Source: Candidatus Methanomethylophilaceae archaeon
GTDB lineage: Archaea; Thermoplasmatota; Thermoplasmata; Methanomassiliicoccales; Methanomethylophilaceae
Assembly: GCA_017519045.1 (NCBI GenBank)
Contig: JAFWTC010000008.1
Location: 1-40,238 of the forward strand
DNA length: 40,238 nt
Direction: 5' to 3'
Numbering within the stretch: position 1 is the stretch's first letter; the number at the start of each line of letters is the position of its first letter. The position numbers were made by a program, and so were the translations under genes. Below are positions 29,000 to 37,858 of the stretch, piece by piece. The notes below the pieces were generated by a model. It worked only from the letters and a program-made list of their open reading frames with translations. It did not search any database and was not told the DNA's origin.

Positions 29000-29098
29000 T
29001 CAGACGCGGAGAAGGCCGGCATTTTATAATGTGACGTTCGAGGCGCCGATTGCGCATCACCCGCAAAGGCCATTAACATGCCCGCCATGGGCCTTCCT

Positions 29099-29485
29099 AT
29101 GAGCGCCTCCGCTTTCAGATCTGACGAATACAAGCTCGTCGTGGTCGTCAGGAAGGACCTGAAGATGGGCAAGGGCAAGCTGGCCGCCCAAGTCGCCCAC
29201 GCCGCCGTCGAATGCGCCCTCTACTCCGAAAAGAAGGACAGGAGGTCGTTCGACAAATGGCACGACTCGGGGCAGGCCAAGGTGGTCCTCAAGGTGGATA
29301 CCTTGGAGGAACTCATGCGCGTGGTCGCGGAGGCCAAGAGCGTCGGCCTCCACACCTCGGTCATCACGGATGCGGGAAGGACCCAGATCGAGCCCGGAAG
29401 CGTCACCTGCGCCGGGATCGGGCCGGCGATCGCCGGGGACATAGACCGCGTCACCGGCGACCTGAAGATGTGCCGATCGCTCTAG
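29099..29485 (+). CDS. pth2: Peptidyl-tRNA hydrolase Pth2
   Basis: The archaeal/eukaryal type of peptidyl-tRNA hydrolase, releasing tRNA from stalled peptidyl-tRNA. The family core is clear: KLVVVVRKDLKMGKGKLAAQVAHAAV, then KVVLKV, TSVITDAGRTQIEPGS and the closing AGIGPAIAGDIDRVTGDLK. The start at 29099 gives 128 residues with a short N-terminal extension; an ATG at 29078 is also in frame. The stop is TAG, rare in this window; it falls at the natural protein end. ATTTTATAAT at 29021-29030 is the probable TATA box. Confidence 0.93.
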   Translation: MSASAFRSDEYKLVVVVRKDLKMGKGKLAAQVAHAAVECALYSEKKDRRSFDKWHDSGQAKVVLKVDTLEELMRVVAEAKSVGLHTSVITDAGRTQIEPGSVTCAGIGPAIAGDIDRVTGDLKMCRSL

Positions 29486-36197: not shown

Positions 36198-36950
36198 ATG
36201 GACATCCCGGCGGTCTTCGCCAGATTCGCCGATGACGGCGTCACCCTGTCGGAAGGGCACTTCAAGAGGACGGTACCGGTTCTGGACGGCCCCCCGCTGC
36301 CGGTCTCCGCCGTATCGGAGAAGATCAACAAGGAGAATCGCAATCCCGTGCTCATAGCCGATTACAACAGCCTGTACGGGAGGTATTTCTGCGAGAAGAT
36401 CATGAAGCACGTCAGGGTGAGAGGCGCCTCCATGTGGCTCATGACGTACATCGAGACCACCGAGGACCTCTTCGACGCGTTCAACTACAACGCCGACGTC
36501 GTGGTTTCCCCTTATCATGCGTCTGAATCGGATGCCGTCCTCAGAGACGTCTACGATGTCTCGGACAGCTTCATCCCCGCCGTGTACGTGTACAGGGGGA
36601 AAGGCGTCTCCAGGAAAGGGAAGCCGGAGGACCTCCGCAGGATGCTCGACCACCTGTACGACGTGGGCTTCCGCAGGGTATCCGTCCTGGACGCCGACAT
36701 GTCCCTCTCCGAGGAGGAATGGGCGGCCATAGCCGACAGATACCCCTCCGCCATTCCCTTCCCCGGGTGGGTCGGAGGAATGGCCCCTGAAACGGGATTC
36801 GAAGCCAGGGTCGTTCCCGTCCGCTTCCGAAGATCCTCCCCAAGAACTCCGCGACGGCCTCCTCGGACCCCTCCGCCCCCCTTCTGTCGGTTCCGGGGAA
36901 CTCCAGATGCCCGCGCCACCTCATGCCGGCGGTTATCGAGAAGGCCCTGA
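36198..36950 (+). CDS. Hypothetical protein, 250 aa, with antisense-derived tail
   Basis: The first 205 or so residues look like a real soluble alpha/beta protein: PVLIADYNSLYGRYF, ADVVVSPYHAS, FIPAVYVYRGK, GFRRVSVLDADMS. The alternation of strands and helices suggests a TIM-barrel-like fold, with a loose HisA-like feel, but I cannot assign a family. After VRFRRSS the sequence becomes Arg/Pro-rich and is antisense to the conserved C-terminus of the flavoprotein gene, so the natural end is near 36815 and the stop only at 36950. A CCAAATACC element about 28 bases upstream resembles the one before 3781. Confidence 0.6.
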   Translation: MDIPAVFARFADDGVTLSEGHFKRTVPVLDGPPLPVSAVSEKINKENRNPVLIADYNSLYGRYFCEKIMKHVRVRGASMWLMTYIETTEDLFDAFNYNADVVVSPYHASESDAVLRDVYDVSDSFIPAVYVYRGKGVSRKGKPEDLRRMLDHLYDVGFRRVSVLDADMSLSEEEWAAIADRYPSAIPFPGWVGGMAPETGFEARVVPVRFRRSSPRTPRRPPRTPPPPFCRFRGTPDARATSCRRLSRRP

Positions 36951-37350
36951 GGATGCTTACCGAGGGCTGGAACCTGGGCTCCGGGCTTCCACCGCATATC
37001 AGCGCCACGGACTCCGCGGGATGCGGAAGCCCCTTGCAAAGCCAGAAAGGCTGGAAGCGGTCCATCACCGTCTTCATGAGGGACGAGGGACCGCTGAAAT
37101 GAACAGGGAAGGAGAAGACGAGGACGTCGGCCTCCTAAACCTTCCGCATGATCCTCCCCATGTCGTCATCTATGACGCAATGCCCGTCGGAACAGCCTCC
37201 GCATCCGGTGCAATGGGCTATGCGCATCACCGCCGGATGGACGACCTCCGCATCGTATCCCAAGGACCTGAGGCGGCGCTCGGCGCTCGAAGCCATCGAG
37301 GCTGACACACCCGACTGGTTTGCGCTCCCGCATACGATGAGGGCCTTCAT
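36571..37350 (-). CDS. Iron-sulfur flavoprotein-like NADPH-dependent FMN reductase family protein with internal TAG
   Basis: From ATG 37350: MKALIVCGSANQSGVS (flavodoxin-like FMN loop), then Cys47, Cys50, Cys53 and Cys58 in the compact CX2CX2CX4C arrangement used by iron-sulfur flavoproteins for a 4Fe-4S cluster, then DDDMGRIMRKV. Codon 72 is TAG (37137-37135). The same frame continues directly with EADVLVFSFPVHFSGPSSLMKTVMDR, exactly the next family segment, and runs on through EEAVAEFLGRIFGSG. Read-through would yield up to 259 residues with pyrrolysine at 72; otherwise the product is a 71-residue fragment. The last 80 residues or so beyond GSGRE are antisense to the convergent gene and unconserved. 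No frameshift is needed. Confidence 0.75.
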
Positions 37351-37370: not shown

Positions 37371-37380
37371 CATTTATAAT
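37371..37380. promoter_or_regulatory. Shared palindromic TATA box between divergent genes
   Basis: CATTTATAAT contains palindromic TTATAA at 37374-37379, centred at 37376.5. The A of the two divergent start codons is at 37403 (plus) and 37350 (minus), each 26.5 bases from that centre. This spacing would make both transcripts leaderless from one TATA element. Confidence 0.6.
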
Positions 37381-37402
37381 ACCGAAACGCGTTCCAGACG
37401 CC

Positions 37403-37858
37403 ATGAAGCTCGCTGAAGCCCTCAAAATGAGGTCTGACCTGGACATCAGGCTCAGGCAGCTCGAGACAAGGCTGACCAACAACTCCAAGGTCCAGGAGGG
37501 CGACGCCCCCAGCGAGGACCCCGCCTCCCTTCTGATAGAATTGGATGAGATGACCAAGGATCTGGAGAACCTCATCCGCAGGATCAACGACACAAACAGC
37601 CGCACTTCGGCCAAGGACGGCACCTCCCTCACCGGACTCCTGGCGAAAAGGGACGTCCTGACCAGGAAATGCGAAATCCTCCAGTCGCTGCTCAACGCCG
37701 CCAGCAACAGGACCGAGCGCAGGCTGTCTTCCGACATCAGGATAATGAGCACCGTCGACGTCAAGGAGCTGAGGAAGAAGGTGGACGCGATATCGAAGGA
37801 GATAAGGCTGACCGACAACACCATCCAGGAGCTGAACTGGACCACCGAGCTCATCTGA
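37403..37858 (+). CDS. DIP1984-family protein
   Basis: A 151-residue helical protein of the DIP1984 family (DUF6847), function unknown. Family landmarks are visible throughout: MKLAEALKMRSDLDIRLRQLE at the start, NNSKVQEGDAPSEDP, LIRRINDTNS, GLLAKRDVL, IMSTVDVKELRKKVDAISKEIR and the closing TIQELNWTTEL. The protein is largely coiled-coil. The start at 37403 was chosen over an open frame from 37361 because of the family N-terminus and TATA spacing. The family is mainly bacterial, so transfer is plausible. Confidence 0.88.
   Translation: MKLAEALKMRSDLDIRLRQLETRLTNNSKVQEGDAPSEDPASLLIELDEMTKDLENLIRRINDTNSRTSAKDGTSLTGLLAKRDVLTRKCEILQSLLNAASNRTERRLSSDIRIMSTVDVKELRKKVDAISKEIRLTDNTIQELNWTTELI

Follow-up and report, generated by a model that had tools for sequence, protein, structure and literature searches.

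In work of Heinemann et al. from 2009, a codon for pyrrolysine (Pyl), the 22nd amino acid, is reportedly present in the tRNA-His guanylyltransferase Thg1 of the Methanosarcinales and is said to have arisen by neutral evolution, and Kivenson and others are said to have described in 2025 the whole-genome recoding of TAG to pyrrolysine in some archaea. For the order to which the present host belongs, Borrel et al. (2014) predicted 16 non-methyltransferase Pyl proteins in 'Ca. Methanomethylophilus alvus', in which TAG makes up 1.6% of stops, and one in 'Ca. Methanomassiliicoccus intestinalis', a putative Fe-S binding protein (AGY50215; PMC4153887). Half of their in-frame-TAG genes have homologues without the TAG, and these authors argue that in cells of this kind a newly arisen in-frame amber is a stable mutation (PMC4153887).

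The gene described here likewise carries an in-frame TAG in an ordinary coding sequence. We consider it likely, on the basis of sequence comparisons, that a recent and roughly neutral change from a sense codon to TAG has been tolerated in a small FMN/iron-sulfur flavoprotein since UAG is decoded as pyrrolysine in this cell.

A single TAG within a flavoprotein frame

The window, meaning the whole stretch of 40,238 nucleotides that was analysed, is contig 60 of a MAG-like genome (1.906 Mb, 86 contigs, 91% complete). Named orthologues of the flavoprotein belong to MAGs that carry the labels Methanomethylophilaceae, Methanomassiliicoccaceae or Thermoplasmata, and several of these are from ruminant gut; the host is a methane-making archaeon, probably of gut origin, and is best explained as a Pyl-decoding methanogen related to the Methanomethylophilaceae. 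The features at and around the gene are as follows.

36198 to 36950, plus strand: convergent neighbour, function unassigned, overlapping the 3' end of the flavoprotein frame
36571 to 36825, minus strand: run-on of the flavoprotein frame to TGA, poorly conserved, overlapping the convergent gene
36826 to 37350, minus strand: codons 1-175, the conserved portion of the gene for the FMN/Fe-S flavoprotein, from Pfam FMN_red, orthologues and a structural model
37110 to 37136, minus strand: predicted hairpin starting inside the UAG (z -3.66 for the 100-nt fold)
37135 to 37137, minus strand: in-frame TAG, codon 72 counted from ATG 37350, probably Pyl
37177 to 37212, minus strand: CX2CX2CX4C motif (C47, C50, C53, C58), probable [4Fe-4S] ligands
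37372 to 37381, minus strand: TATA-box-like TATTATAAAT, ~22-31 nt upstream of the flavoprotein ATG
37403 to 37858, plus strand: divergent neighbour, DUF6847 protein (Pfam PF20935, E 8.3e-50)

The first-pass annotation had described an in-frame TAG within this gene without any indel, and this description holds: codons 1-185 contain one stop only, the TAG at codon 72, and the alignment with orthologues has no frame break. The frame encodes in order the FMN loop, the CX2CX2CX4C motif, the TAG and then EADVLVFSFPVHFSGPSS, and all four cysteines of the motif are invariant among 28 aligned sequences. Read through the TAG, the protein is 259 aa long and ends at a TGA at codon 260, with codons 186-259 having a codon-usage score of -81. 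Orthologues mostly end at about codon 175-195, and a similar run-on is present in the nearest relative, G001. The read-through protein matches Pfam FMN_red (PF03358) with E 1.7e-16, as against 6.7e-05 and 1.5e-04 for the separate halves, and because it beats either half we conclude that one protein spans both. Reinitiation 3' of the TAG as a separate second protein is unlikely, since the next ATG in frame comes at codon 92, past PVHFSGPSS. The closest paralogue in the same genome, among the matches listed, is only 33% identical.

The predicted structure has a mean pLDDT of 93, with alternating strands and helices, and places residue 72 near the end of a helix (64-73) just ahead of a strand (76-84). 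The small, polar or charged residues found there in relatives fit a tolerant surface position in this model. The position of the TATA-box-like TATTATAAAT suggests a transcript with a short leader, and TTATAAA is seen at about the equivalent place in L007, L011, L013, L017 and L019. The 3' ends of the flavoprotein frame and of its convergent neighbour share 380 bases (36571-36950); the neighbour has no Pfam or NCBIfam match and is 70% identical over its full 250 aa in G001, the overlap included. A tRNA-like string at ~36780-36805 was ruled out, as ARAGORN reports no tRNA in the window.

Codon 72 in relatives and constraint on either side

Alignment of orthologues at codon 72, a check proposed with the first-pass annotation, finds no TAG in 29 orthologues, which have Ser, Ala, Glu, Gly, Arg, Gln or Asp; the earlier description of this residue as usually hydrophobic or basic does not hold. 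G001 (69% identity) has TCC, and several orthologues have TCG, one base from TAG. A codon was obtained for 24 of 25 named loci and none is TAG, although many of these loci are on contigs that, judging by their lengths, already supply some of the 29 orthologues, and are not independent of them. In a search of 100 relatives, 99 had a match, and TAG was present solely in the window's copy among the matches listed. A survey of 102 family genomes for stops inside the match, made with a stricter cut-off, found one only in the genome studied here (1 of the 68 that had a close match). The TAG is thus absent from relatives, and is therefore private to this genome and probably young, as judged from these comparisons. 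It is not conserved among orthologues of the flavoprotein; such conservation marks functional pyrrolysine, as in the methylamine methyltransferases, and is not required of neutral pyrrolysine.

Sequence constraint extends across the TAG. Of the columns conserved at 90% or more among the other sequences, the flavoprotein keeps 22 of 22 after the TAG and 14 of 15 before it. Compared with G001 by the NG86 method, dN is 0.170 and dS 1.226 after the TAG, and dN is 0.304 and dS 1.405 before it, with dS near saturation. When residue changes are polarised with six outgroups, the part after the TAG has one change on the branch of this genome, nine on the G001 branch and 16 ambiguous, and the part before it has eight, nine and 11 respectively. 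A decayed pseudogene is not favoured, as further stops, frame breaks and losses of conserved columns are all absent after the TAG. These data argue against an old dead gene, while a very recent nonsense mutation would look alike.

Probable UAG decoding and TAG usage in the genome

A search for pyl genes had been proposed as a check, their absence to count against pyrrolysine, and all five were found: pylS (258 bits) and pylB, pylC and pylD score above their cut-offs (NCBIfam for the last three), tRNA-Pyl (pylT) has the anticodon CTA (CUA), and pylS, pylT, pylB, pylC and pylD lie in a row in contig 8. As a positive control, two mtmB genes, mtbB and mttB each contain one in-frame TAG. Given the full pyl set and the TAGs of these methyltransferases, the genome should decode UAG as pyrrolysine.

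TAG usage was examined in five contigs totalling 368,399 bases (19% of the genome; contig 8 only to base 80,000), with ORFs called by our own codon-usage caller. The stops of the 331 ORFs in this sample are TGA in 272, TAA in 34 and TAG in 25. Within the window, 35 of the 37 called ORFs end in TGA or TAA and two in TAG, in agreement with the earlier remark that nearly all other genes here end in TGA or TAA. A read-on test asked which called ORFs of at least 99 aa remain open and coding-like for 30 codons past the stop; 9 of 18 TAG-ended ORFs do so versus 13 of 284 for TAA and TGA (Fisher p 3e-7), three of the nine being methyltransferases and two being one gene.

A scan for genes with coding-like flanks around a TAG flagged 15, and five were set aside by eye; the flavoprotein itself was missed, its tail scoring -81. 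Repeated with TAA as sense the scan flagged one gene, and with TGA as sense it flagged 18, so that flagging by itself lacks specificity for frequent stops, and the read-on test is the fairer one. Two genes, C10:3438 and C21:10258, were set aside as short, and C21:82093 because its TAGs lie upstream of the likely start of a ligase. At C4:45132 an Lrp-like regulator and AspRS are run together and the TAG looks like a terminator, and C60:5540 was left out as well. The accepted genes in the sample are three methyltransferases and seven others, with 11 TAGs in total. These seven are an archaeal UMP kinase, three Sel1-repeat proteins, the DNA polymerase D (PolD) large subunit, a BspA-type leucine-rich repeat protein and an ABC transporter, and addition of the flavoprotein gives eight in-frame-TAG genes outside the methyltransferases. 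The UMP kinase TAG is found in this genome only among the matches listed, G001 having no match there. The three Sel1-repeat genes lie in contig 10 at 33310-58990 and carry four in-frame TAGs, two of them in one gene.

TAG also ends real genes, for example one with a Pfam PTH2 domain, so there are two uses of the codon in this genome, and the gene ends suggest that some genes here still rely on TAG for termination. The PTH2 (peptidyl-tRNA hydrolase) gene (29078-29485, plus strand), one of the two TAG-ended ORFs of the window, ends in TAG, and read-through would add 56 codons before a TGA. In contig 4 (45132-47492) the Lrp-like regulator ends in a TAG in frame with the AspRS that comes next (both identities were assigned by eye), and read-through would fuse them.

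The PolD large subunit, part of the replicative polymerase and essential in that role, is the stronger companion of the flavoprotein and merits more attention. Codon 536 of its gene (contig 10, 79784-83164; L048/L049) is an in-frame TAG, and G001 has a TAG at the same codon (G001:C209, L081) in a segment that is 85% identical. The corresponding codon in eleven other relatives is AAG in four, AAA in two, an Arg codon in three and GTG (Val) in two; that is, Lys or Arg in 9 of 11, with one of the AAG codons belonging to G010. The segment was matched in 59 of 60 genomes and contains a TAG in three of them, namely this genome, G001 and G010, the last at another codon. PylS scores over the cut-off in G010 and was not found over it in G001, a genome that is 61% complete. 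In G001, pylB scores over the cut-off and reaches the edge of a contig of 4026 bases, and mtmB and mttB contain a single in-frame TAG apiece. The missing pylS may reflect an assembly gap, as it would follow pylB if the gene order were that of the genome studied here. With a TAG in PolD in two species, UAG decoding in this lineage would seem efficient enough for the cells to depend on. A search of the literature, in which few subscription journals were covered, found nothing on pyrrolysine in archaeal PolD.

These findings bear on two other explanations of the flavoprotein TAG. The first is that it is a nonsense mutation in a fresh pseudogene, with ribosomes stopping at the UAG to leave a useless 71-residue fragment. 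The TAG is indeed private to this genome, TAG terminates some other genes here, and a very recent mutation would likewise leave no decay; but the cell has a complete Pyl kit, the PolD large subunit needs UAG to be decoded, and decay after the TAG is absent, making this explanation improbable. The methyltransferase controls and the other in-frame-TAG genes make decoding far likelier than plain termination. The second is a sequencing or assembly error, in which the true codon is a sense codon one base off. The species is represented here by a single MAG-like genome in 86 contigs, yet such an error needs one exact substitution, with 29 of the 185 codons being one base from TAG, and other in-frame TAGs recur in the genome, one of them common to the nearest relative. 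As such, an error appears highly improbable.

The hairpin predicted after the UAG pairs AGGAGG with UCUCCU around GACG/CGUC. The first-pass annotation had noted a GAGG/CCTC pairing directly after the TAG; the predicted hairpin is larger than was described. The z of -3.66 for the 100 nt from the UAG lies beyond all 300 of 300 random in-gene windows from the sampled contigs, and the same test on 29 orthologues gives z from -1.99 to +1.20, all weaker. These two comparisons favour a regulated read-through, in which the UAG and hairpin would yield full flavoprotein only when pyrrolysine is plentiful, so that the gene would sense the methylamine-dependent Pyl supply. Against this, the TAG sites of mtmB (z +1.16), mtbB (+0.75) and mttB (-0.51) have no such fold, and the mean z of 11 other TAG sites, the three methyltransferases included, is -0.71 versus -0.24 (sd 1.02) for controls; we regard such regulation as very unlikely. 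A general PYLIS element is not favoured either, as the mtmB, mtbB and mttB TAG sites in contig 8 are without such a fold. A similarly low value, z -3.63, was obtained for the TAG site of the Sel1 gene at C10:33310.

Interpretation and comparison with described Pyl proteins

The favoured explanation, a recent sense-to-TAG change tolerated through decoding, would proceed as follows. At a position that tolerates substitution, a sense codon, with TCG (Ser) as the simplest candidate, would have mutated to TAG. Pyl-tRNA(CUA) would then insert pyrrolysine at codon 72 in competition with release factor, at some efficiency, and with the full-length FMN/iron-sulfur flavoprotein being made the mutation would be nearly neutral. 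The pyrrolysine would presumably have no special role in this protein. The first-pass annotation had offered a choice between a Pyl protein outside the methyltransferases and a nonsense mutation of one base, an alternative that the pyl genes and the other in-frame-TAG genes support; the TAG probably arose by a one-base change from sense, and both halves of that alternative may be true at once. The flavoprotein is not a new mechanism. It is a clear case of pyrrolysine probably spreading by mutation beyond the methylamine methyltransferases.

On balance, we also lean towards a broader view in which UAG is in practice a Pyl sense codon throughout the lineage, in dozens of ordinary proteins, with core functions (PolD, in two species) depending on it. 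If so, the Pyl kit could be neither lost nor silenced, even when methylamines are absent, and the flavoprotein would be among the newest captures in the spread of the Pyl codon. Together, the flavoprotein and PolD TAGs suggest how a recoded stop codon becomes entrenched. The set of in-frame-TAG genes described here could be used for measuring read-through efficiency, and is a warning that standard gene calling truncates such genes.

Our literature search, covering few subscription journals, also found nothing on pyrrolysine in a flavoprotein of this kind. Mentions of 'flavoprotein' in the available portions of PMC1242214 and PMC9723677 are unrelated, and 'DNA polymerase' is absent from those portions of both. 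In the table of 20 proteins given by Borrel et al., no entry is named as a flavoprotein, a DNA polymerase or a UMP kinase, although several rows read just 'hypothetical protein' (PMC4153887).

As a protein, the flavoprotein resembles Isf of Methanosarcina thermophila and Archaeoglobus fulgidus, which similarly combine an FMN_red-type protein with a compact cysteine motif. The available part of PMC3164229 gives the compact motif of amoebal Isf proteins as CX2CX2CX5-7C, and the spacing before the last cysteine is X4 in the flavoprotein described here versus the X5-7 stated there. The FMN_red/flavodoxin-like fold of Isf is present and the CX2CX2CX5-7C motif is not. PDB sequence searches with the flavoprotein returned no chain labelled Isf, the best match being 7d38, labelled Cd1. 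As a Pyl-codon gene, it is like Thg1 of the Methanosarcinales in being a non-methyltransferase, although that is another protein in another order, and it joins the class of putative Pyl non-methyltransferase proteins described by Borrel et al.
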